NCBI GenBank assembly: GCA_030038175.1
Contig: JASHPN010000086.1
Location: 1 to 36,896 of the forward strand
Direction of reading: 5' to 3'
Length of the DNA: 36,896 nucleotides
DNA from: Verrucomicrobiia bacterium
GTDB lineage: Bacteria; Verrucomicrobiota; Verrucomicrobiia; Limisphaerales; UBA11358
Shown here: piece by piece, positions 17,473-36,896 of the stretch
Layout: the number at the start of each line of letters is the position of its first letter
Numbering within the stretch: position 1 is the stretch's first letter
Notes under the pieces: generated by a model
The model's database searches: none
What the model was told of the DNA's origin: nothing
What the model saw: only the letters and a program-made list of their open reading frames with translations
Program-made: the position numbers and the translations under genes

Positions 17473-17976
17473 ATGAATGCAAATGAAAAATCCCCGGCGT
17501 CCAGCCCTCGAATGAGGCGGATTCAAAATGTCAGCTCGTTCGTGCGCGTGCTTTTATTGGCACTCCTGGTCATTGAAGGGGCGGGCATGGCTGTCGGCCT
17601 GTTCGTGATTCCATCCACGCTTTTCCATATCTCGGGGATGAAATCACACGTTGTTTATACAATTTTCACGGCGTTTTTGCTGTTCCTGCCACTGATGTTC
17701 CTGGTGACGCTAAATTTTTTCAGGCTTTTTACGCGGCTAAAGAACGGCTGGTTGTTTGAATCGGAGACGATTGAATACCTGGAAAGGGCAGGTAAATGGT
17801 GGATTACGCTGAGCGTTGTCAGTGCGATTGTACAACTGGTGGAATCGTATGTTTTCAGGCCAGATCATATCATTGTTCCTGGGAATGGCATTTGGGGAGG
17901 ATTAATTGTATTTTTTATCGCGTGGGTTTTGCGGGAAGGGCAGCAAATGAAGGAAGAACAGGAGTTGACGGTGTAA
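17473..17976 (+). CDS. DUF2975 family membrane protein
   Basis: This is a 167-residue integral membrane protein with four predicted membrane segments at about 22-46, 60-84, 109-128 and 139-153. The segment FFRLFTRLKNGWLFESETIE after TM2 and the C-terminus REGQQMKEEQELTV are typical of DUF2975 (B. subtilis YoaS-like) proteins. Members are usually paired with a small Cro/CI-type regulator, as here: the HTH gene starts 1 bp after this stop. The function of the pair is not known; a membrane sensor or antagonist of the regulator has been a reasonable guess. It is preceded by a strong promoter. Confidence 0.88.
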   Translation: MNANEKSPASSPRMRRIQNVSSFVRVLLLALLVIEGAGMAVGLFVIPSTLFHISGMKSHVVYTIFTAFLLFLPLMFLVTLNFFRLFTRLKNGWLFESETIEYLERAGKWWITLSVVSAIVQLVESYVFRPDHIIVPGNGIWGGLIVFFIAWVLREGQQMKEEQELTV

Positions 17977-17977
17977 T

Positions 17978-18208
17978 ATGGCAATCATTGTCAACCTGGA
18001 CGTGGTCCTGGCGCAGCGGAAGATGCGGCTGAACGATTTGGCAGACGCGGTGGGCATTACGCCGCAGAATCTGTCTGTCCTCAAAACCGGCCGGGCCAGG
18101 GCGATTCGCTTTTCAACGCTGGACGCGATTTGCAAGACGCTTCAATGCCAGCCCGGGGAAATTTTGGAGTACCGGCCGGAGCAAGAAAACGGGAATCAGA
18201 GCCAATAG
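17978..18208 (+). CDS. Small XRE-family (YozG-like) helix-turn-helix regulator
   Basis: This is a 76-residue DNA-binding protein made almost entirely of one Cro/CI helix-turn-helix. It starts with a beta-strand-like IIVNLDVVLAQRKM; the HTH lies at about 16-37 (LNDLADAVGITPQNLSVLKT), followed by FSTLDAICKTLQCQPGEIL and a short charged tail. This is the usual partner of DUF2975 proteins. With 1 bp between stop and start it is almost certainly co-transcribed and coupled with the upstream gene. It probably regulates its own operon; the target is not visible. Confidence 0.92.
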   Translation: MAIIVNLDVVLAQRKMRLNDLADAVGITPQNLSVLKTGRARAIRFSTLDAICKTLQCQPGEILEYRPEQENGNQSQ

Positions 18209-18543: not shown

Positions 18544-18891
18544 AACTTGTCAAACACCGGCGATGACGGGTAGTTGCGCTTTTGCTTGAACCGCAATTGG
18601 GAGCGCGGCATTTATGCCGCTTCATCGTACGACAATCGGGGGCGCCGATGTATTCCGTTACCGTGCAATGTTGTACGCCGAAGCGATCCCGCCCCATGCG
18701 GGATCGCGCTCCGATACGTCGTCTGATGCTTGGAATAGCGGATGACAACTTTGGTTTATTGTCCCAATGCATTCCTGAAAAGAAAGGGGGCTTTCCATGA
18801 AGCATGGCAGGGCCGACTGACCGGCCGGCTCGGCCGCGCGTTTCTGCCTAATAATTCGCGTCAATTCGCGAAATTCGCGGATCAATCAATT
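18544..18891. other. Non-coding gap with structured repeats
   Basis: No credible gene is seen in these 348 bases. The first part holds the four-way-junction element at 18600-18712. Further on, AATTCGCG occurs three times in a row at 18853-18860, 18863-18870 and 18872-18879, just beyond the 3' end of the DUF481 gene. Confidence 0.55.
18600..18712. repeat. Structured intergenic repeat, four-way junction, copy 1
   Basis: The 113-bp element folds into contiguous stems: outer GGAGC (18600-18604) with GCTCC (18708-18712); left hairpin GCGGCA-TTTA-TGCCGC (18605-18620); inner stem TTCATCGTAC (18621-18630) with GTACGCCGAA (18673-18682, two mismatches); right hairpin GCGATCCCGC-CCCAT-GCGGGATCGC (18683-18707). 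Each stem begins where the previous one ends. A second element of the same design is at 26132-26259. Confidence 0.65.
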
Positions 18892-23082: not shown

Positions 23083-23148
23083 GAAACGCTTATTTTACCC
23101 TGCGGAAGGGGAAATTCAAGATTTGGAGCGCCATGATTTGTTCCCAAT

Positions 23149-23234
23149 GCCTCACGCAAAGGTCGCCAAGGTCGCAAAGGATTGGAGACGACAACATCCA
23201 ACCCTTTGCGGACTTTGCGCCCCTTTGCGTGAGC
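23149..23234. repeat. 86-bp hairpin repeat, copy A (flanks GxxExxY gene)
   Basis: This 86-bp sequence differs from copy B at 23712-23797 by one base. It is itself a long imperfect inverted repeat: CTCACGCAAAGG (23151-23162) pairs with CCTTTGCGTGAG (23222-23233), with further GCAAAGG/CCTTTGC pairing inside. A diverged homology extends upstream (GAAATTCAAG and GCCATGATTTG, from about 23111). Confidence 0.8.
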
Positions 23235-23641: not shown

Positions 23642-23711
23642 AGCAGTCCGTCCACGGTGCGGATTTGACGACGAAAATTCAAGCGGAACATGCCATGATT
23701 TGCCTCCACAA

Positions 23712-23797
23712 GCCTCACGCAATGGTCGCCAAGGTCGCAAAGGATTGGAGACGACAACATCCAACCCTTTGCGGACTTTGCGCCCCTTTGCGTGAGC
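23712..23797. repeat. 86-bp hairpin repeat, copy B
   Basis: This is the direct repeat of 23149-23234, shifted by 563 bp, with a single difference (T at 23723). It lies between the GxxExxY gene and the 3' end of the trehalose gene (stop at 23808). The diverged homology upstream begins with GAAAATTCAAG at 23673. Confidence 0.8.
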
Positions 23798-23807
23798 AAC
23801 CAGGCTT

Positions 23808-26030
23808 TTATTCTGAAGGCAACGTTGTGTGAATCAAAATCTCGCGCAGCAGCCGCCGCACGGCCGTGTGCGTCGTCAGATAATATCGGGCCGCGGTGTT
23901 GGCCAATCCCACGCGAACGGAATACGCCTCCGGCGGCAGCGCGCGAAACAGGTCCTCGTCCGTCCAGTCGTCGCCAATGCCCAGGACAAAATCAGGGTTG
24001 CCCCCGTTGAGCCATTCCAGGGCCGCCGTGCCCTTGTTGACGCCGGTGTTCCGGACTTCCACGACTTTATTCCCCTCCAATACCTGCACGTCTATGTTGC
24101 GCGTGAAGCCGGCCAAATCGTCGAGCAATTCCTTCGCCCGCAATGACCCCTGTTCGGGATCGGCGCGGCGATAATGCCACGCGAGCGAAAACTCTTTTTC
24201 CTCCAGAAACGCCCCGGGCAGGCGGTCAACGTAGAGCTGCAGGATTGGGCGCACGCGTTCTTTCCATTCGACGGTCATCGCCTTCAACATGCGCCACTCC
24301 GTCCCCTTGCGCCGCAGCCAGACGCCGTGTTCCGCCACCAGCGAAACCGGCAGGTTCCCAAACCAATTCTCCAGATCGGACCGCGGCCGGCCGCTGATGA
24401 TGATGACCTCGTTGGCTGGAGCGGTTCCCAGCGCCGAAAGCAATTCCATCACTTCGGCATCCGGCTGGGCGAGTTTGGGCTCAGTCGCCAGCGGCACCAG
24501 GGTGCCGTCGTAATCCAGCAGCAATGAGCGCCGCGCCGCCGATTTGTAAACTCGCAGCATGGCCGCCATCGCATTGCCGCTCAACAACCGCGCCTGACGC
24601 GCCGCTTCGGTTTTTTCCGTGGAAATCATGGCCTGGACAAAGTCGTCCGCCCAGCGGTTGATGTCGTAACGGCGCAAACGCTCGCGGAGAATTTGGTTGC
24701 GCCGGATTTGTTCGTCCTCCGGCATGGCCAAGGCCTGCTCCAGGGCGCGCGCAAAATCTTCGACATGCACCGGATTGATGATGATCGCTTCTCCCATTTC
24801 CTTGGCCGCGCCGGCCATTTCGCTCAAAATCAGCACGCCCTTGCCGTCCGGGCGCGACGCGACAAATTCCTTGGCCACCAGATTCATCCCGTCGCGCACC
24901 GGCGTGATCATCGCCGCGTCGCACAGCCGGTAAAGCGCGACAATCTCCTCGAACGAAATATTTCGGAACTGATAAATCAGCGGCGTCCAATGAACGGTGC
25001 CGAAGGCGCCGGTGATGCGGCCCACCATTTGCTCCAGTTCCAATTTCATCGCCTGATAACTTTCGACGCCAATTCTTGACGGAGCGACGGAAATAATAAA
25101 CACCACCTTGCCGTGCCACTGCGGGTTATTTTTCAAGAAAAGTTCATAGCCGCGCAGCCGGTTGACCAGCCCTTTTGTATAATCCAGGCGGTCCACCGAA
25201 AAAACCACCTTTTGGCCCGCGCACTGTTCCCGTAATTCCGCGGTTCGCCGCCCGGTGTCCGGGGATTCCGCGGCCTTCGCGAAGCGGTCAAAGTCCACGC
25301 CCATCGGAAACGTGTCCACCTTCACCACCCGGTCGCGCAACGCGAGCCGGCCCAGGTGATGTTCGCAGCCGGCGGTGCGCAGTACGGAGGTCAAAAAATC
25401 CCGCGTATAATCGTGCGTATGAAAACCGACCAGGCTCGCGCCAATCAGCCCTTCGATGATCTCCTCGCGCCACGCCCGCGGCAGCAGTCGGAACACTTCG
25501 TAGGACGGAAACGGAATATGCAGAAAAAAGCCAATCGGCATGGCTGGAAATTTTTCCCGGATCAATTTCGGCAGCAGCATCAGATGATAGTCATGCACCC
25601 AAACCATGTCGTCGGGACGCAAGGCGTTCACCACTTCCTCGCCGAAAATGCGGTTCACCTTCCGGTATTCCTGCCAATATTCCTCTTCATAACAGGCCAG
25701 CGAAGGAAAATAATGGAACAGCGGCCAGATGGTTTTATTGCAAAAGCCGTGATAAAAGCGTTCCATGCTTTCTTCCGGCAAAAAAATCGGGCAGCTCTTG
25801 AATTGTTCCCCGCCGTATTTTCGCACGATGGCCTGGTGTTCGGGCGCGACGGTGCAGCCGGGCCAGCCCAGCCAGAAATAATCCGGCCGGTTTAAAGCCT
25901 TTTCCGACGACTGGCGCAAATAACTGGCAAGTCCCGTGCTCAATCCGCCTGAGCTGGTATTAAATTGCGGCAACCCCTCAACAAACGAAACCGTGAACGG
26001 CAACCGGTTAGAAACCACAACCAACCTCAT
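23808..26030 (-). CDS. Bifunctional trehalose-6-phosphate synthase/phosphatase (OtsA-OtsB fusion)
   Basis: The 740-residue protein carries both steps of trehalose synthesis. Residues 1-470 are a GT20 synthase: N-terminal VVVSNRLPF, SSGGLSTGL, VHDYHL (145-150), FFLHIPFPS, VDRLDYTKGL, APSRIGVESY, and RDGMNLVAKEFVA for UDP-glucose binding. Residues about 500-735 are a HAD phosphatase: nucleophile in LLDYDGTL (DYDGT 506-510), IIISGRPRSDL, and GDDWTDEDLF (686-695). Together they convert UDP-glucose and glucose-6-phosphate to trehalose, often for osmotic or desiccation protection. It is a single cytoplasmic polypeptide with no break. No other trehalose genes are near. Fusions of this order are also known in eukaryotes and several bacterial groups. 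Confidence 0.95.
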   Translation of the reverse strand: MRLVVVSNRLPFTVSFVEGLPQFNTSSGGLSTGLASYLRQSSEKALNRPDYFWLGWPGCTVAPEHQAIVRKYGGEQFKSCPIFLPEESMERFYHGFCNKTIWPLFHYFPSLACYEEEYWQEYRKVNRIFGEEVVNALRPDDMVWVHDYHLMLLPKLIREKFPAMPIGFFLHIPFPSYEVFRLLPRAWREEIIEGLIGASLVGFHTHDYTRDFLTSVLRTAGCEHHLGRLALRDRVVKVDTFPMGVDFDRFAKAAESPDTGRRTAELREQCAGQKVVFSVDRLDYTKGLVNRLRGYELFLKNNPQWHGKVVFIISVAPSRIGVESYQAMKLELEQMVGRITGAFGTVHWTPLIYQFRNISFEEIVALYRLCDAAMITPVRDGMNLVAKEFVASRPDGKGVLILSEMAGAAKEMGEAIIINPVHVEDFARALEQALAMPEDEQIRRNQILRERLRRYDINRWADDFVQAMISTEKTEAARQARLLSGNAMAAMLRVYKSAARRSLLLDYDGTLVPLATEPKLAQPDAEVMELLSALGTAPANEVIIISGRPRSDLENWFGNLPVSLVAEHGVWLRRKGTEWRMLKAMTVEWKERVRPILQLYVDRLPGAFLEEKEFSLAWHYRRADPEQGSLRAKELLDDLAGFTRNIDVQVLEGNKVVEVRNTGVNKGTAALEWLNGGNPDFVLGIGDDWTDEDLFRALPPEAYSVRVGLANTAARYYLTTHTAVRRLLREILIHTTLPSE

Positions 26031-26131
26031 ATGCGGATAGTCTCGACTGTTTGAACTGATTGTTCAAGCGCCGGTTCATGGAAAGTCCTCTTTCTTTTGA
26101 GAACGCATCGGGACCATGAACTGGAATGCCT

Positions 26132-26259
26132 GGAGCGCGGCTGTGTGCGATAGCACCAGCACGTGGCCAGCCGGAGGTCCTGGGTATGGCGACGACTCTT
26201 CGCGTTGCGGACGTGCTGCGACTGATCTCCCGATAAATCGGGGGACACAGCCGCGCTCC
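26132..26259. repeat. Structured intergenic repeat, four-way junction, copy 2
   Basis: Outer arms GGAGCGCGGCTGTGT (26132-26146) and ACACAGCCGCGCTCC (26245-26259) are perfectly complementary. Inside lie a left hairpin GTGC-GATA-GCAC (26145-26156), an inner stem CAGCACGT (26157-26164) with ACGTGCTG (26211-26218), and a right hairpin around CCCGAT-AA-ATCGGG (26229-26242). It has the same architecture and outer GGAGCGCG ends as the element at 18600-18712, but different internal sequence. It lies upstream of the trehalose gene and downstream of the LRR gene. Confidence 0.7.
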
Positions 26260-26282: not shown

Positions 26283-29200
26283 TTAGGGACCAATCAACCG
26301 ATAAAACCGCCGTGAATTCGTGGCCGAAGAATCAATGAACGTCGCCGTTCCGGTTACATTGGTCACGGCCCCAAGAGTCGTCCAGGGGCCGGCGGTAAGA
26401 TTTGTCGCGAACTGCACTTGATAGACCAAATCCGTCGCGCCATTCAGCGAAAATTCAATCTGATGCGCGCTCAGCCGCAACGGCGAGAGCAACGTCGCCA
26501 GGCTCTGCGGCAGATACACCACCGTCGCCCCGCCCGCTTCAAGAGCTTCGATCTCCGCCAGGGCCGGCGAACCCGGAGACAGATTCAGCAAATTATAATT
26601 CAATTGCACGTCGTTCAAATTCGTCAGGCCCGTGATGGGCGCCAGGCTCGTGACCTGATTATTGTTGAAAAACAAGGTGGACAGTTTCGTCAAATGGGCC
26701 AGCGGCGCGAGGCTGGTGACCTCGTCGTTGCCGACGTCAAGAGACGTCAGGTTCGTCAAGCCGGCCAGTGGCGAGAGGTCGCTGATTTGAAGGTCTTTCG
26801 CATTCAACTGGGTCAATTGGATCAGGCCTGCCACCGGCGAAAGATTGGTAATCAGGTTGTCGTTGATCCAAAGGATATTCAGATTTGTCAGTCCCGCCAC
26901 CGGCGACAAGTCGGCGACATCGTTATTGTTGGCATACAGGATGGTCAAGTCGGTCAGTCTGGCCAGCGGAGAGAGATTGGTCGCATCATTGAAGCTGAGG
27001 TCCAGGAAGGTCAAATTGCTCACCGCGCCAAGGGCCGTCAGATTGGAAATGTGGTTATTGTCGAGATAGACTTCCGTAAGATTGGTCAAATTGGCGAAGG
27101 ACGGCAGATTTGTAATGTCATCAAAGCCGGCGTCGAAGGTGATCAACCCGGTGAGATTTGTGAGTGGCGAAAGGTTGAAAAGATTTGAATTTTCATCAAA
27201 CTGGAGGTGCGCCAGGTTCGCCATGTCATCCAGCGGCGAGAGATCGGTGATCTGGTTTTCGTCAAGGTAAAGGGTCGTCAGGTTGGTCAGAGTGGACAGC
27301 GGACTGATGTTGGTAATCGCGTTCCCTGAAAGGACCAGATACGTGAGGTTCGTCGCGTAGGCCAGTCCAGTGACGTTCTGAATGCCGTCGTAACCCGCCG
27401 TGAGATTGGTCAGCGTCAACATTTCCTGCACGGTAACCGGCCCGGACGAAAGACCCAGGGCGGACTCGACCGCGGCCTGCAAGTTGGCGTCCGGAAACGT
27501 CACTGGAGTGCCGGAAATAATGCTGAGATAGGCGTTGTCGCTGAAGATCGTTCCGTTATCGTCGGAAACCTCCACATAATAGGCGCCCGCCTGGCTCGGA
27601 TCGGTAACGGTGACGCTCAGCGTGTTGCTGGCGGACCCCGTGATGCCGCCGCCGTCACTCAGCGGAACGTAGTTATAAAACCATTGATAATAAATATCCG
27701 GCGGCGAACTCGAAGTGGCGCTGACGGTGAAGACCGCCGTCTGGCCCACGATCACCATTTGATTCGTTGGCGGCGAATTAATCGTGGGAGTCGTATTCTG
27801 CGGCTGATAGGTGACATTCGCGCCGAGGTTGAGATATGTATTGATGACGTTCATCGCGTCCAAGCCGGCGGTCAGGTTCACGCTATTGTAGCTCACATCC
27901 AGCGTTGTCAGGTTGTTGGTCAGGGGCAGCAACGGATCGAGGTTGCTCACGAAATTGTTTTCCATGGTCAGGGTGGTGAGGCTGGTGAGATTGGTGAGCG
28001 GATCCAGCCGATAGACTCCGTTGTTATCCAAAATCAGCGTCTGCAACTGAACCAGGCCCGCCAATGGCGTGAGATTCTCAATTTGATTGTCATTCAACGG
28101 CAGCCACGTCAGGTTCGTCAATCCGGCCAGGGGCGAGAGGTCGCTGATTTGGTTGTAGGACGCGTTCAACAGGCTCAATGGGGTCATGCCGGCCAGCGGC
28201 GAAAGGTTGGTGATTTGATCGTTGTTGAAGTAAAGATTCACCATATTGGTCAACCCGGTCAGCGGCGAAAGGTCGGTTGCGCTGGTGTAACTGATGTCCA
28301 AATAATTCAAGGCGCTCATTTCCGCCAATGGCGAGAGGTTATCAATCTGATTGTTTCCGAGAAAAAGTGTGCCCAGATTCGTCAACCCGGCCAGCTCCGA
28401 GACGTTGGTGATGCCGATGTTGGCCGCATTCAACAGGGTCAATTGCGTTAACCCGGCCAGCGGCGAAATATTGGGGATCGGATCATCATTGAGGTACAGG
28501 CTCCCCAGATTGGTCAATCCGGCCAGCGGCGAAATATTGGTGACGAGATTGTCGTTCACGGGCAGCCACACCAGGCTCACCAGATGAGTCAGCGGGGACA
28601 GGTCGGAGATTTGATTGTGGCTTGCGTTCAATTGGCTTAATTGAACCATGCCGGACACGCCCGCCAGGTTGGTGATTTCATTGTTGTTAATGTACAGGTT
28701 GGTCAGATTGGTCACTCCGGCCAGCCCCAAAAGATTGCTCAAACTATTGAAACTGAGGTCCAGATAATTCAGCGCGCTCAAATTCGCCAGTGCCGGGAGC
28801 CCGGTAAGTTGATTCTGGCTCACGACCAAATAGCTCAGGTTGGTCAATCCCGTCAACGGCGAGACGTTGGTAAGCTGGTTATTGTAGAGGAGAAGCTGGA
28901 TGAGTCCGGTCAACGTCGCCACCGGGGTGATATCAGTCAGTTGATTGTGTCCGGATTCGAGATAAGTCAAGTTGGTCAACCCGGTCAATCCGGCGAGGCT
29001 GATAATCTGGTTATTATCAATGGACGCCGAGGTTAGATTCGTCAAACCGCGCAACGGCGGCACATTGGTTACCTGGTCATAGCCGCCGTCGAAATCGGCC
29101 AGCGCCGTCAGGTTCGTCATCGGCGACCAATCCACAATCGGATTCTCGCCCATTCGCAAATGAGCCAATTGAACCATCCGCTCGATCGGCGATAGATTCG

Positions 29201-29558
29201 TGATTTGGTTGTTATCTATCTGGAGCGTGTTCAGGTTCGTTAACCCGGCCAGCGGCGTGATGTCGGTGAGCGAATTGCCCGAGAGAACCAAATAAGTGAG
29301 GTTCGTCGCATATTGCAGTCCCGTGGCATCCTGGATGTTATCGCCGCTGGCGGTCAGGTTCGTCAGCGTCAGCATCTCGGCGGCAGTGACCGGGCCCGAA
29401 GACAGCCCCAGAGCCGACTCCACGGCCGCCTGCAGGTTGGGATCAGGAAAAGTGACTGTCTGGGCGGAAGCCAGTCCGGCGATGCCGAGAAATTGGGCGA
29501 AGATAAGACTGGCCGCAAAGCGCAGGTGTTTTCGCGCGAAATAGTGCAAAATTTTCAT
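26283..29558 (-). CDS. Secreted internalin-like leucine-rich-repeat protein with Ig-like domain
   Basis: This is a 1091-residue protein. A signal peptide ends near residue 32 (GLASAQ). A cap motif (VTFPDPNLQAAVESALG) is followed by about 23 LRRs of 21-22 residues in the internalin SDS22-like form (NQITNLSPLAGLTNL; about 80-575). An Ig-like domain lies at about 590-680 (PTINSPPTNQMVIVG to GAYYVEVSD), then a second cap (VTFPDANLQAAVESALG, about 684) with a second, shorter LRR block to about 1010. Cap plus first repeats are therefore duplicated. Within the first block a seven-repeat unit (154 residues) is duplicated at exactly 462 bp. The last 65 residues end in RRFYRLIGP, like the two glycosidases. 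LRRs usually bind proteins or glycans; the ligand is unknown. Confidence 0.9.
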   Translation of the reverse strand: MKILHYFARKHLRFAASLIFAQFLGIAGLASAQTVTFPDPNLQAAVESALGLSSGPVTAAEMLTLTNLTASGDNIQDATGLQYATNLTYLVLSGNSLTDITPLAGLTNLNTLQIDNNQITNLSPIERMVQLAHLRMGENPIVDWSPMTNLTALADFDGGYDQVTNVPPLRGLTNLTSASIDNNQIISLAGLTGLTNLTYLESGHNQLTDITPVATLTGLIQLLLYNNQLTNVSPLTGLTNLSYLVVSQNQLTGLPALANLSALNYLDLSFNSLSNLLGLAGVTNLTNLYINNNEITNLAGVSGMVQLSQLNASHNQISDLSPLTHLVSLVWLPVNDNLVTNISPLAGLTNLGSLYLNDDPIPNISPLAGLTQLTLLNAANIGITNVSELAGLTNLGTLFLGNNQIDNLSPLAEMSALNYLDISYTSATDLSPLTGLTNMVNLYFNNDQITNLSPLAGMTPLSLLNASYNQISDLSPLAGLTNLTWLPLNDNQIENLTPLAGLVQLQTLILDNNGVYRLDPLTNLTSLTTLTMENNFVSNLDPLLPLTNNLTTLDVSYNSVNLTAGLDAMNVINTYLNLGANVTYQPQNTTPTINSPPTNQMVIVGQTAVFTVSATSSSPPDIYYQWFYNYVPLSDGGGITGSASNTLSVTVTDPSQAGAYYVEVSDDNGTIFSDNAYLSIISGTPVTFPDANLQAAVESALGLSSGPVTVQEMLTLTNLTAGYDGIQNVTGLAYATNLTYLVLSGNAITNISPLSTLTNLTTLYLDENQITDLSPLDDMANLAHLQFDENSNLFNLSPLTNLTGLITFDAGFDDITNLPSFANLTNLTEVYLDNNHISNLTALGAVSNLTFLDLSFNDATNLSPLARLTDLTILYANNNDVADLSPVAGLTNLNILWINDNLITNLSPVAGLIQLTQLNAKDLQISDLSPLAGLTNLTSLDVGNDEVTSLAPLAHLTKLSTLFFNNNQVTSLAPITGLTNLNDVQLNYNLLNLSPGSPALAEIEALEAGGATVVYLPQSLATLLSPLRLSAHQIEFSLNGATDLVYQVQFATNLTAGPWTTLGAVTNVTGTATFIDSSATNSRRFYRLIGP

Positions 29559-31836: not shown

Positions 31837-31884
31837 GCGGCGCATCCGTCGGTAGAAACAGGTCATTACGAAAGGAAGAACACT

Positions 31885-34623
31885 ATGAAATCCGTACTGC
31901 GTCTGAATCTCATCTGCGCGCTGGCAATCCTGGCGCTTTTATCAACCATCAACGATCAACTGTCAACCGCCTGCGCCCAGGGCACCGCCTTCACCTACCA
32001 GGGGCAGTTGCAAAACAACGGCGTTCCGGCCTACGGAACCTACAACCTCCAATTCACCCTCTATACCAATAGCGCCGGAGGTGTCGCCGTCGCCGGGCCA
32101 GTGACCAACAACGCTGTGGCCGTCACCAATGGCCTGTTCACCGTGACAATGGATTTCGGCTCGGCGCCCTGGAACGGGCAGAGCAACTGGCTGCAAATCG
32201 CCGTGGAAACCAACGGCGCAGCCACGTTCATCGCGCTGGCGCCTCTCCAGCCGGTGACGCCCGTGCCGTATGCGATTTATGCTGAAAATGCGACAATGCT
32301 GGCCGGTGGCACGGCCCTGGGTATGGGTTCGGGGGACAGCATCGCCAGTGCCGCGAGCGATGCCTTCATCGGCGGCGGGTATCACAATATGATTGAAATT
32401 AACGGGAGTGACGCCTCCATCGGCGGCGGCTATGAGAACCAGGCTGATGCCCAGAGTTCGACCGTTGGCGGGGGCGCGTTCAACATCGCCAGTGGCAATA
32501 CTGCGACCGTGAGCGGCGGCGATGCCAATATCGCCAGCGGTGTTTATTCGGCGGTGGTTGGCGGCTATCACAACCAGGCCGGCGCCAGTGGCTCTTTCAT
32601 TGGCGGCGGCGGTTACGATGGAACCACCTCTGATGGCAATAATAATCAGGCCAATGCCGCCGCCATTGTCGGCGGGTTGGGCAACGTCATTGGAAGCAGT
32701 GCCGTTTACGCTTTCATTGGCGGCGGTGCGTACAACAACGCCGGTGGCGGATATGCGGCAATCGGCGGTGGCGGGGGAAACGTCGCCGGCGGTCAATGGG
32801 CAATCATCGGCGGCGGCGCAAACAACTTTGCGAGCGGCCAGGATGCTGTTATCGGCGGCGGTGACGGAAACACCGCCAGCAACGAATTGGCGACAGTGGT
32901 CGGCGGCTATGAAAACTTGGCCGGCGGTACTGGCTCCTTCATTGGTGGCGGGGGTTACGATGGAAGCACCAGTGACGCAAACACGAATCAAGGCAACGCC
33001 GCCGCCATTGTCGGCGGGTTGGGCAATAACATCTTAAGCGGAGCGCCTTACGCTTTTATCGGCGGCGGATGGGGCAACACCGTCGGCGCAGTCAGTTCGA
33101 CGGTCGGCGGCGGCTTTGAGAACACCGTCGGCGGCGAAGACGCAGTCGTCGGCGGCGGCCAGAATAACTCCGCCGGCGGCAATTCCGGGACGGTGGCCGG
33201 CGGCACTTACGACACCGCCGGCGCTGCCTTTGCCACGGTGGGCGGCGGTCTTGACAACAACGCCGGCGGCATTGGCTCCTTCATTGGCGGCGGGGGCGAT
33301 GATGGAAACAAATTTAACGGAAACACCAATCAAGGCAACGCCGCCTCCATTGTCGGCGGAGAGGGCAATACCATCGCCAGCGGCGCGACGTATGCCGTTA
33401 TCGGCGGCGGCTATCACAGCACTGTCAACGGTTCTGGCTCCTTTGTTGGCGGCGGTGGTTATGATGGAAGCAATCTTGATGGAAACAGTATTCAAACCTC
33501 TGCCTCCGCCATCGTCGGCGGGTTGGGCAACGTCATCCAGGGCGCGGGGGAGTATGCCTTCATCGGTGGTGGCCAGGGCAATGTCGCCAGCGGCAATAGC
33601 GCGACGATGAGTGGCGGCGCGGACAACTCCGCCAGCGGCAGCGGCTCTTTCGTCGGCGGCGGCGGTTATGACGGGAGCAGCTACGCCGGAAACAATAATC
33701 AAGGCGCCGCCTCGGCCATCGTCGGCGGATGGGGCAACGTCATCAACGCGGCGGCCACTTACGCCTTCATCGGCGGTGGCCAGCAAAACACCAACAGCAA
33801 TCTCGGGGCGACCCTGGGCGGTGGTATATTTAATGTGGCCAGTGGACAGGCGGCGACCATCGGCGGCGGCGCGTTCAATGCCGCCGGCGGCACGGCTGCG
33901 ACGGTGACCGGTGGCCAGGACAACACCGCCAGCGGCACTTACTCGACCGCATGCGGCGGTTCGACCAACCTCGCCAGCGGCGCCGATTCGTTTGCCGCCG
34001 GAGACGAGGCCCGGGCGACCAATAACGGCGCCTTCGTTTGGGCCGATTCCACCGGCGCCGCTTTCGGCTCCGCCAGCAACAATACCTTCAGCGCCCGCGC
34101 CAGCGGCGGCTACCGTCTTTACAGCAGCACCACCACAGGCGAGTGGCTGCCTGCCGGCAGCGGCACCTGGAATTCGCTCAGCGACCGCAACGCCAAAAAC
34201 AATTTCGCGCCGGTGGACCCGCAAACGGTGCTGGCCTCGGTGGCGTCGTTGCCGCTGAGCACCTGGAGTTACAAGACTGAGCCGGGTGTGCGGCATTTGG
34301 GGCCGATGGCGCAGGATTTCCACGCGGCCTTTAAGGTGGGTGAAGACAACCGGCATATCGCCGATTTGGACGAAGGCGGCGTCGCCCTGGCCGCGATCCA
34401 GGGCCTGAATCAAAAAGTGGAGGATGGAAACCAGAGACAAGAGCACTGCATCCAGAAGTCAGAAGCCAGAATCCGGAATTTGGAAACGGAGAACTCGAAG
34501 CTCCAGGCGCAGGTAGCCGGCTTGCAAGCCCAGCTGGCCGGCCTGCAAAAGGCCGTCGCCGCTCTGGCCGGCAAATCCGTCCGCAATCTGGCCCTGAACA
34601 CTCAAGCCCAGGAAGACAAATGA
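31885..34623 (+). CDS. Surface fibre protein 1: YadA-head-like GGG repeats with C-terminal S74 chaperone
   Basis: The 912-residue protein has a signal peptide ending at about residue 31 (LSTACAQ). A beta-rich N-terminal domain follows (TAFTYQGQLQNNG to PVPYAIYAENA, about 32-135), then about 560 residues of 14-16-residue repeats of the form AxIGGGxxNxAxGxxA with recurring longer units (SFIGGGGYDG to NAAAIVGGLGN). These resemble YadA head beta-roll repeats. The S74 intramolecular chaperone begins near SDRNAKNNF; Ser766 and Lys771 match the S74 catalytic Ser-x4-Lys dyad. GPMAQDFHAAF follows. The tail (about 840-910) is coiled coil. S74 domains trimerise and self-cleave in phage tail fibres. A trimeric surface fibre is inferred. 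A second paralogue starts 24 bp downstream. Confidence 0.85.
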   Translation: MKSVLRLNLICALAILALLSTINDQLSTACAQGTAFTYQGQLQNNGVPAYGTYNLQFTLYTNSAGGVAVAGPVTNNAVAVTNGLFTVTMDFGSAPWNGQSNWLQIAVETNGAATFIALAPLQPVTPVPYAIYAENATMLAGGTALGMGSGDSIASAASDAFIGGGYHNMIEINGSDASIGGGYENQADAQSSTVGGGAFNIASGNTATVSGGDANIASGVYSAVVGGYHNQAGASGSFIGGGGYDGTTSDGNNNQANAAAIVGGLGNVIGSSAVYAFIGGGAYNNAGGGYAAIGGGGGNVAGGQWAIIGGGANNFASGQDAVIGGGDGNTASNELATVVGGYENLAGGTGSFIGGGGYDGSTSDANTNQGNAAAIVGGLGNNILSGAPYAFIGGGWGNTVGAVSSTVGGGFENTVGGEDAVVGGGQNNSAGGNSGTVAGGTYDTAGAAFATVGGGLDNNAGGIGSFIGGGGDDGNKFNGNTNQGNAASIVGGEGNTIASGATYAVIGGGYHSTVNGSGSFVGGGGYDGSNLDGNSIQTSASAIVGGLGNVIQGAGEYAFIGGGQGNVASGNSATMSGGADNSASGSGSFVGGGGYDGSSYAGNNNQGAASAIVGGWGNVINAAATYAFIGGGQQNTNSNLGATLGGGIFNVASGQAATIGGGAFNAAGGTAATVTGGQDNTASGTYSTACGGSTNLASGADSFAAGDEARATNNGAFVWADSTGAAFGSASNNTFSARASGGYRLYSSTTTGEWLPAGSGTWNSLSDRNAKNNFAPVDPQTVLASVASLPLSTWSYKTEPGVRHLGPMAQDFHAAFKVGEDNRHIADLDEGGVALAAIQGLNQKVEDGNQRQEHCIQKSEARIRNLETENSKLQAQVAGLQAQLAGLQKAVAALAGKSVRNLALNTQAQEDK
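32131..32497. repeat. 367-bp near-identical block shared by the two fibre genes (copy 1)
   Basis: This block matches 34894-35260 at a constant offset of 2763 bp with only three mismatches. Sequence before and after it in the two genes is visibly more diverged, so the block stands out as a recent gene-conversion or duplication tract. Confidence 0.7.
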
Positions 34624-34647
34624 AATTCTGAAGAAAGGAAGAAAACT

Positions 34648-36896
34648 ATGAAAACCATGTTGCGTTTGAATCTTATATTCGCGCTGGCCGTGTTGGCGCT
34701 TTTATCAACTGCCAACGATCAACTATCAACCGCCCACGCCCAGGGCACCGCCTTCACCTACCAGGGCCAGCTCCAAAACAACGGCGTTCCGGCCAACGGG
34801 ACCTACAACCTCCAATTCACCCTCTATACCAACAGCGCCGGAGGTGTCGCCATCGCCGGCCCTGTCACCAATAACGCCGTGGCCGTGTCCAACGGCCTGT
34901 TCACCGTGACAATGGATTTCGGCTCGGCACCCTGGAACGGGCAGAGCAATTGGCTGCAAATCGCCGTGGAAACCAACGGCGCAGCCACGTTCATCGCGCT
35001 GGCGCCTCTCCAGCCGGTGACGCCCGTGCCGTATGCGATTTATGCTGAAAATGCGACAATGCTGGCCGGTGGCACGGCCCTGGGTATGAGTTCGGGGGAC
35101 AGCATCGCCAGTGCCGCGAGCGATGCCTTCATCGGCGGCGGGTATCACAATATGATTGAAATTAACGGGAGTGACGCCTCCATCGGCGGCGGCTATGAGA
35201 ACCAGGCTGATGCCCAGAGTTCGACCGTTGGCGGGGGCGCGTTCAACATCGCCAGTGGCAGTACTGCCACGATAAGCGGTGGCTATGCCAATATCGCCAG
35301 CGGTGTTTATTCGGCGGTGGCTGGCGGCTATCACAATCAGGCCGGCGCCTATGGCTCATTCGTTGGCGGCGGCGGCTACGACGGAAACAACTTTGATGGC
35401 AATAATAATCAGGCCAACGCCGCCGCCATTGTCGGGGGGCTCGGCAACAGTATCTCGAACACTGCGAATTATGCCTTCATCGGCGGCGGCCAGACCAACA
35501 CCGCCAGCGGAACCAATGCAACCATAGGCGGCGGCTGTGACAACAACGTCAGCGGCAGTGGCTCCTTTATCGGCGGCGGTGGTTTCGATGGAACGACCAT
35601 TGATGGAAATACCAATCAAGGCAATGCCGCTACTATTGCCGGCGGACTGGGTAATTTCATTCAAAGCGGCGCGAATGACACGTCCATTGGCGGCGGTTAT
35701 CATAATATGATCGAACTCAACGGAAGCGATGCCACGGTCGGCGGTGGCTATGAAAACCAGGCGGATGCCCAGAGCTCGACCGTTGGCGGCGGCGCGTTCA
35801 ACATCGCCAGTGGCAATACTGCAACGATAAGCGGTGGCTATGCCAATGTCGCTGGCGGCGTTTATTCGGCGGCGGTTGGCGGCTATCACAATCAGGCCGG
35901 CGCCTATGGCTCCTTCATTGGCGGCGGCGGCTATGACGGAAACAACTTTGATGGCAATAATAATCAAGCCAACGCCGCAGCCATTGTCGGCGGACTGGGC
36001 AACTCTATTTCAAACACCGCAATTTATGCCTTCATCGGCGGCGGCCAAACCAATATCGCCACCGGTACCAATGCAACGATCGCCGGCGGTTGGGATAACA
36101 TCGTCGTCGGTAGCGGTTCCTTCATCGGCGGGGGTGGCTATGATGGAACGACGGTTGAGGGAAATACCAATCAAGCCAATGCCGCCGCCATCGTCGGCGG
36201 ACTGGGTAATCTCATCCAAAGCGGCGCAAATGACACCTTCATCGGCGGCGGGTATCGTAATATGGTTAATCCCAACGGGAGCGATGCCGTCATCGGCGGC
36301 GGCCAGTTCAACCTCGCTGGCGGCGAGTACGCGACGGTGAGTGGCGGCTATCAAAATCAGGCTGTCGCCCAGGATTCGACCGTCGTCGGCGGCGCATTCA
36401 ACGTTGCCAGTGGCGGCTTTTCTTTTGCCGCCGGAGACGAGGCCCAGGCGACCAACAATGGCGCCTTCGTATGGGCGGATTCCATCGGCGACGATTTTGG
36501 GTCGGCCAGTAACAATACCTTCAGCGTCCGCGCCAGCGGCGGCATCCGGCTTTATAGCAGCACCAGTTCCGGTGAGTGGTTGCCCGCCGGCAGCGGCATG
36601 TGGACAAGCTTGAGCGATCGCAACGCCAAAAATAATTTCGCGCCGGTGGACCCGCAAACGGTGCTGGCTTCGGTGGCGTCCTTGCCCGTGAGCACCTGGA
36701 GTTACCAGACTGAGCCGGGCGTGCGGCATTTGGGACCGATGGCGCAGGATTTCCACGCGGCCTTTAATGTGGGCGAAGACAACCGGCATATCGGCGACTT
36801 GGACGAGGGCGGCGTCGCCCTGGCTGCCATCCAGGGGCTGAATCAAAAAGTGGAAACCGGAAAGCAAAAAACCGAAAACCAGATTGAAGAACTCAA
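34648..36896 (+). CDS. Surface fibre protein 2, paralogue, truncated by window end
   Basis: This frame starts with ATG at 34648 after the same AAGGAAG ribosome binding site, 24 bp past the first fibre gene. It is open for 749 codons to the window edge. It has the same plan as fibre 1: signal peptide (LSTAHAQ), N-terminal domain beginning TAFTYQGQLQ, GGG repeats, S74 domain with SDRNAKNNF (Ser656, Lys661), GPMAQDFHAAF, and the start of a coiled coil at the edge. In its head region two 555-bp units (185 residues each) repeat in register. The tandem arrangement, same spacing and no promoter between them suggest one operon with fibre 1. I followed the frame codon by codon from about 35041 to the end and found no stop. 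Confidence 0.85.
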   Translation, partial: MKTMLRLNLIFALAVLALLSTANDQLSTAHAQGTAFTYQGQLQNNGVPANGTYNLQFTLYTNSAGGVAIAGPVTNNAVAVSNGLFTVTMDFGSAPWNGQSNWLQIAVETNGAATFIALAPLQPVTPVPYAIYAENATMLAGGTALGMSSGDSIASAASDAFIGGGYHNMIEINGSDASIGGGYENQADAQSSTVGGGAFNIASGSTATISGGYANIASGVYSAVAGGYHNQAGAYGSFVGGGGYDGNNFDGNNNQANAAAIVGGLGNSISNTANYAFIGGGQTNTASGTNATIGGGCDNNVSGSGSFIGGGGFDGTTIDGNTNQGNAATIAGGLGNFIQSGANDTSIGGGYHNMIELNGSDATVGGGYENQADAQSSTVGGGAFNIASGNTATISGGYANVAGGVYSAAVGGYHNQAGAYGSFIGGGGYDGNNFDGNNNQANAAAIVGGLGNSISNTAIYAFIGGGQTNIATGTNATIAGGWDNIVVGSGSFIGGGGYDGTTVEGNTNQANAAAIVGGLGNLIQSGANDTFIGGGYRNMVNPNGSDAVIGGGQFNLAGGEYATVSGGYQNQAVAQDSTVVGGAFNVASGGFSFAAGDEAQATNNGAFVWADSIGDDFGSASNNTFSVRASGGIRLYSSTSSGEWLPAGSGMWTSLSDRNAKNNFAPVDPQTVLASVASLPVSTWSYQTEPGVRHLGPMAQDFHAAFNVGEDNRHIGDLDEGGVALAAIQGLNQKVETGKQKTENQIEEL
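34894..35260. repeat. 367-bp near-identical block, copy 2
   Basis: This is the counterpart of 32131-32497 with three mismatches. It spans part of the N-terminal domain and the first GGG repeats of fibre 2. Confidence 0.7.
35143..36252. repeat. Two in-register 555-bp repeats inside fibre gene 2
   Basis: Unit 1 (35143-35697) and unit 2 (35698-36252) align without insertions or deletions and begin with TATCACAATATG and TATCATAATATG. Landmarks such as TATGCCTTCATCGGC recur exactly 555 bp apart (35470 and 36025). A third unit begins at 36253 and is cut short by the C-terminal S74 region. Confidence 0.75.

Follow-up and report, generated by a model that had tools for sequence, protein, structure and literature searches.

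REPINs of Pseudomonas fluorescens SBW25 (Bertels and Rainey 2011, PMC3116915) are inverted doublets of high copy number, with a variable spacer, linkage to a RAYT gene and a predicted single-strand fold. Similarly built are the REP dimers of the GTAG superfamily (Di Nocera et al. 2013, PMC3733652; among the carriers is O. terrae, of the Verrucomicrobia), which are head-to-head and often heterodimeric, with conserved or structured spacers and several families per genome, some of them within palindromes. In Pseudomonas and Xanthomonas (Nunvar et al. 2010, PMC2817692), inverted REPs surround RAYT genes and coevolve with them, and GGAGC stands directly 5′ of a GC-rich hairpin; in E. coli, inverted REPs are arranged in mosaics (BIMEs) and TnpA-REP (structure 4er8) is an HUH Y1 transposase with HxH and Tyr motifs. 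The REP heads described are GT(A/G)G, and the Pseudomonas and Xanthomonas units read GT(A/G)GGAGC plus hairpin, with GGAGC just inside GT(A/G) (PMC2817692; PMC6006769).

These traits recur in the system to which an intergenic element at 18600-18712 of the window (the whole stretch of 36,896 nt analysed, from a Verrucomicrobiia genome) belongs. However, the head here is GGAG, not the GT(A/G)G of SBW25, and, unlike in SBW25, a perfect hairpin belongs to each REP, which allows a doublet to form a four-way junction. In the GTAG superfamily the tags are GTAG or CGTC, and the word GGAG is absent from the text of that paper, while the GT(A/G) that precedes GGAGC in Pseudomonas and Xanthomonas is missing here. 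Compared with E. coli TnpA-REP, the RAYT here has a longer N-terminal part and the head is GGAG; the hairpins, in contrast to those of BIMEs, are perfect except for a bulge in type B.

Since GGAGC doublets are accompanied by hairpin families that track RAYT clades, the window element is best explained as a REPIN with a GGAG rather than a GT(A/G)G head, that is, a non-autonomous mobile doublet of inverted REPs that is linked to a cognate RAYT and whose four-way fold is automatic (probability roughly 0.88). Copy number, doublet design, covarying hairpins, RAYTs flanked by the same hairpin family and the agreement between clade and family support this directly. The system behaves as a REPIN and is best named a GGAG variant, the GGAG head being its distinguishing feature. 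By analogy with E. coli and other REPtrons (PMC8266576), such a non-autonomous doublet, its two REPs inverted and each running from a GGAGC head through a perfect hairpin into a short tail, would be recognised as single-stranded DNA by its cognate RAYT (a REP-associated HUH tyrosine transposase), which would bind the GGAG head and the hairpin, cut nearby and copy or move the doublet to new sites, most of them outside genes. The junction would form automatically, with the heads as outer stem, the hairpins closing on themselves and the tails as inner stem. RAYT/REPIN biology would thereby come to include a form headed by GGAG, in which hairpin family and transposase clade correspond almost one to one and one genus has several families; as the head is constant and the stem variable, a natural data set would be at hand for what RAYTs read in their targets.

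The window elements, their fold and their copies

Two elements of the window, one of type A and one of type B, were resolved into the following parts (basis in parentheses).

18600..18712, + strand: probable type-A REPIN, in which a partly conserved spacer is flanked by two REP units in inverted orientation, each with GGAGC head, hairpin and tail (fold z −4.3; genome matches)
18600..18604, + strand: left head GGAGC, outer-stem partner of 18708-18712 (fold; 5-mer scan near RAYT genes)
18605..18620, + strand: left REP hairpin GCGGCATTTATGCCGC, reading GCGGC-ATTTAT-GCCGC (fold; arms covary in 32 distinct type-A ends)
18621..18633, + strand: left REP tail, the inner-stem arm TTCATCGTACGAC, complementary to 18670-18682 (fold; partners without covariation)
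18670..18682, − strand: right REP tail, the inner-stem arm GTTGTACGCCGAA (fold; partners without covariation)
18683..18707, − strand: right REP hairpin GCGATCCCGCCCCATGCGGGATCGC, its stem longer than the common GCGACCTGAAGGTCGC (sequence, family comparison)
18708..18712, − strand: right head GCTCC, which is GGAGC on the − strand (sequence, fold)
26132..26259, + strand: probable type-B REPIN, decayed, with the left hairpin lacking CCGCAG after 26159 and the right hairpin GCGGCTGTGTCCCCCGATTTATCGGGAGATCAGTCGC imperfect (fold, family comparison)

The four-way junction that a sequence-only reading had proposed for 18600-18712 was borne out on both strands: RNA folding returned it for the plus (−60 kcal mol−1, z −4.26) and the minus strand (−57 kcal mol−1, z −3.82), and the same topology was obtained under DNA parameters (z about −3.5), with 0 of 200 shuffles equal in each case. 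Of the four stems then listed, the fold is real but the outer one had to be shortened: it is properly 5 bp (GGAGC/GCTCC), and the next GCG, for which either pairing is possible, was assigned to the hairpins. The arms 18621-18633 and 18670-18682 are complementary because the two REPs are inverted copies. The second element of the same design, claimed at 26132, is also there, though partly decayed: it folds better than the one at 18600 (z −6.0, plus strand), and, compared with other members of its family, 6 nt (CCGCAG) are missing from its left hairpin, with the result that its two ends pair together over about 15 bp.

Copies were collected by sequence-pattern and region retrieval from the genome assembly (5.39 Mb, 431 contigs, 91.8% complete), which is fragmented, with contigs sometimes ending in such repeats; the total of pairs is a lower bound. 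A search for paired ends, as the same reading had advised, did reveal further copies, with at least 70 pairs GGAGCGCG N87-115 CGCGCTCC in the genome versus none for the reversed-pattern control. Strict REP units numbered 63 for type A and 209 for type B, and 18600-18712 itself had 42 genome matches, several of them 80–84% identical across the full length. The elements are inverted (head-to-head) doublets, in each half of which the GGAGC head is followed by a perfect hairpin and then by a short tail, and they fall into several families with common termini and differing hairpins.

Family A (window 18600): hairpins GCGGCATTTATGCCGC / GCGACC..GGTCGC, tail TTC
Family B (window 26132): GCGRCTG-T-inner hairpin-CAGYCGC, tail AGC
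Family D: hairpin GCGGAC..GTCCGC
Group C: B ends, different middle

No insertion or excision was seen: relatives share with the surroundings of the window element short conserved stretches at only 65–81% identity, and no clean copy of an empty site was found within the genome. In another genome of the same order (G050), GGAGC elements number more than 100, some of which form tandem-like arrays with a spacing of about 149 bp, and an L106-like RAYT is present as well.

RAYT genes and the GGAG head

Scanning the genome for the IS200-like transposase domain gave nine matches. A RAYT-type transposase gene, which had been suggested as something to look for elsewhere in the genome, is present on contig C65 (L055:1411-2082, minus strand) and is flanked on both sides by elements of the same kind, here of type D (1292-1404 and 2171-2281). 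The RAYT exceeds the cut-off of PF01797 (transposase of HUH Y1 type) and that of NCBIfam NF047646 (REP-associated tyrosine transposase), with two other RAYTs just under the latter. For the profile of its clade the best solved structure was E. coli TnpA-REP (4er8; E=2e-12), and the H, H and Tyr columns of the RAYT alignment are invariant. When GTDB genomes were scanned for relatives of this RAYT, the best 30 loci were mostly from Verrucomicrobiota, several being labelled Limisphaerales, Pedosphaera or subdivision 3.

Type-A hairpins adjoin the RAYT genes L110, L121, L122 and L123, type-B hairpins adjoin L108, L116 and L127, and type-D hairpins adjoin L100-L102. In a tree of 58 RAYTs, the A-, B- and D-flanked RAYTs form one clade each with 100% bootstrap (support 100/98 or better), and the hairpin labels require the fewest possible changes, a number as low being reached by 0 of 200 shuffles of the labels. 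The rule also holds for most of the RAYTs retrieved afterwards, which came from 59 related genomes: L247 (which is the L110 protein), L248 and L257 are A-like and have A hairpins, L245 is B with B hairpins, and L250 is L111-like with the hairpin of L111, while the exception, L259, is 65% like the A clade and lacks A hairpins. Congeneric genomes obeying the rule are G001, G005 and G032 for A and G028 for B. Within the 91.8%-complete assembly of the present genome, the type-D RAYT alone was found and none of type A or B, so that the window's A and B copies are probably orphans; the corresponding RAYT has probably been lost here, leaving relics or copies that no longer spread, unless such RAYTs lie in the unassembled part. 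REPs outliving their RAYT have been described in Pseudomonas and Stenotrophomonas (PMC3686654).

The head was examined by an unbiased scan, in which all 5-mers abutting perfect 6-bp hairpins on the 5′ side were counted both close to 62 RAYT genes (within 300 nt) and farther than 1 kb from them. GGAGC was the top 5-mer, with 133 occurrences versus 4.3 expected, and was found in 43 of the 62 RAYT loci, including those whose titles name Chloroflexi, Acidobacteria, Planctomycetota and Pseudomonadota genera. Immediately upstream of GGAGC there is no conservation, positions −1 to −3 not being kept as GTA, and the head is GGAG(C) rather than the GT(A/G)G by which the described REPs are defined. To say that the element starts with GGAG as many REPs do is thus apt in so far as the element is REP-like but loose in its wording, as the heads described are GT(A/G)G and, in the REPs of Pseudomonas and Xanthomonas, GGAGC occurs only just inside GT(A/G). 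Since the Pseudomonas and Xanthomonas units read GT(A/G)GGAGC, the present GGAGC is either a changed head or that motif minus GT(A/G). In the literature on RAYTs with GGAG, of which part was covered, nothing turned up beyond coincidental word matches and REPs of the GTAGGAGC type, and an earlier description is possible. It is conceivable, if somewhat short of probable, that this RAYT clade (in Verrucomicrobiota, also Planctomycetota, Acidobacteriota, Chloroflexota and Pseudomonadota) uses a fixed GGAG head as guide and the hairpin stem as an exchangeable address for each RAYT; if so, a head-plus-stem recognition rule could be read straight from sequence.

Flanking sequence and gene context

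Beside both window elements lies a linker, in the following positions.

18713..18801, + strand: 3′ neighbour conserved with type-A elements, tail GATACGTCG... plus linker TTTATTGTCCCAATGCAT...CTTTCCATGAA (same order in contigs C120, C290, C14 and C19)
18586..18599, + strand: left remnant of the same linker (TTGAACCGCAATTG; compare CCATGAACCGCAATTG, which precedes elements in C120 and C204) (sequence comparison)
26075..26120, − strand: linker module TTCATGG...CCATGAA adjoining the type-B element (linker copies)

Next to type-A and C-group elements stand two conserved sequences, a GATACGTCGGCCGATGGCTTGGAA tail and an imperfect palindrome of 48 bp, TTCATGGTCCC...GGGGGCTTTCCATGAA. Because type-A copies have such a conserved neighbour, the spreading unit may exceed the REPIN, and the mobile unit could be a larger composite of REPIN, tail and TTCATGG...CCATGAA linker, driven by a non-RAYT mover with the REPIN as passenger. 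Consistent with this, type-A and type-C copies have flanking linker sequence in common on one or both sides, and the palindrome joins elements into strings in C19, C120, C204 and C411. Such a composite is nevertheless unlikely, as the flanks of most type-B and type-D copies are unrelated, linker copies also occur without an element (L212), and RAYTs are flanked directly by GGAGC units. The linker could be a module placed between REPs, as is known from BIMEs, or a repeat of older date.

The 48-bp imperfect-palindrome repeat (TTCATGGTCCCAATGCATNCGAAAAATCGAAAGGGGGCTTTCCATGAA) occurs in the window at 26075-26120 and 18755-18801 and also at L209-L223, with about a dozen copies having intact ends; it is usually joined to GGAGC elements and sometimes stands alone. 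One type-D element is located inside a CTCACGC...GCAAAG palindrome. A CCTCACGCAAAGG...CCTTTGCGTGAGC palindrome is present in two window copies (23142-23234 and 23705-23797; 96% identical and 563 bp apart), and a repeat similar to it contains a type-D element in L069 (C114). That elements are as a rule centred in larger palindromes was rejected, since only 10 of 73 exceeded the 95% null and 1 of 73 the 99% null, and a search for empty palindrome targets CATGAAC...GTTCATG gave one match, of the wrong kind. Further repeats of the window are those internal to large ORFs at 32347-36675 (spacing of about 45 nt and 207 nt, GGCGG-rich units) and a duplication at 31870 and 34633, spaced 2763 bp.

Both window copies lie between genes with recognisable domains. 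The region 17473-18208 encodes a DUF2975 protein and then a small HTH_26 regulator, the HTH part of which is about 75–81% identical at the DNA level in many genomes of the genus. The element at 26132 sits between two genes of the same strand: 26283-29558 (minus), encoding a leucine-rich-repeat protein of 1091 aa that carries an Ig domain, and 23808-26030 (minus), a fused trehalose-phosphate synthase/phosphatase gene. The latter position would suit a regulatory RNA, either an intrinsic terminator or an mRNA-stabilising structure, retained for host function, and known REPs have been proposed to serve in transcription termination and mRNA stabilisation (PMC3733652). We regard this as quite improbable here: a terminator-like site is absent at the 18600 element, the families track the transposase clade, and a copy with a broken hairpin exists at 26132.

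Hairpins and inner stem

The two arms of each hairpin covary. Among 32 distinct type-A ends the paired fraction was 0.963, versus a maximum of 0.895 after exchange of the 3′ arms; the corresponding values for 84 type-B ends were 0.978 and 0.915. For example, position 9 is G-C in 20, A-T in 11 and mismatched in 1 of the type-A ends and G-C in 51 and A-T in 29 of the type-B ends, and an inner position of the type-B hairpin is C-G in 39, G-C in 35 and T-A in 8. Selection is thus visible on each hairpin, but not on the inner stem, where true partners were no more complementary than swapped ones in type A (18 elements; 8.78 versus 8.77 of 13; P=0.52), type B (31 elements; P=0.90) or type D (P=0.76); the partner swaps suggest that the inner stem would pair because both tails come from one sequence, inverted. 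Compensatory differences, which the sequence-only reading had named as what would mean selection for structure, exist within each hairpin but do not extend to the junction as a whole.

Under DNA energies, the four-way and rod forms are nearly equal, the junction being better in 6 of 13 type-A, 18 of 34 type-B and 0 of 7 type-D elements. At position 9 each of the 13 type-A elements is a G/A heterodimer, so that each hairpin stays perfect while that pair breaks in the rod. As the inner stem lacks covariation and the two forms are near-isoenergetic, the junction is best read as a by-product of the inverted hairpin doublet rather than as a conserved unit. That selection acts on the entire four-way junction, whether as RNA or as a DNA cruciform, for example because a junction-specific protein binds it or because it serves as a structured RNA, is very improbable: the fold is possible in many family copies and both strands fold well, but these partner-swap results and near-equal energies (with the rod favoured in 7 of 7 type-D elements) stand against it, as do the absence of wobble bias toward one RNA strand (G-T versus A-C, a test of DNA versus RNA; 16 versus 21, no signal) and the 0 matches of Rfam covariance models to the window at the gathering threshold. 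Two inverted hairpins can thus give rise to a striking four-way fold as a side effect, and the comparison of true with swapped partners separates the two cases.

At type-B ends (L001-L099), the inner part of the hairpin is swapped as a block, with its own pairing nearly always kept; the blocks exchanged include GTGC-GATA-GCAC, GTCCCGTCTGCGGGAC, GTCTCCCGATNNATCGGGAGAC and GCTGAAAGC.
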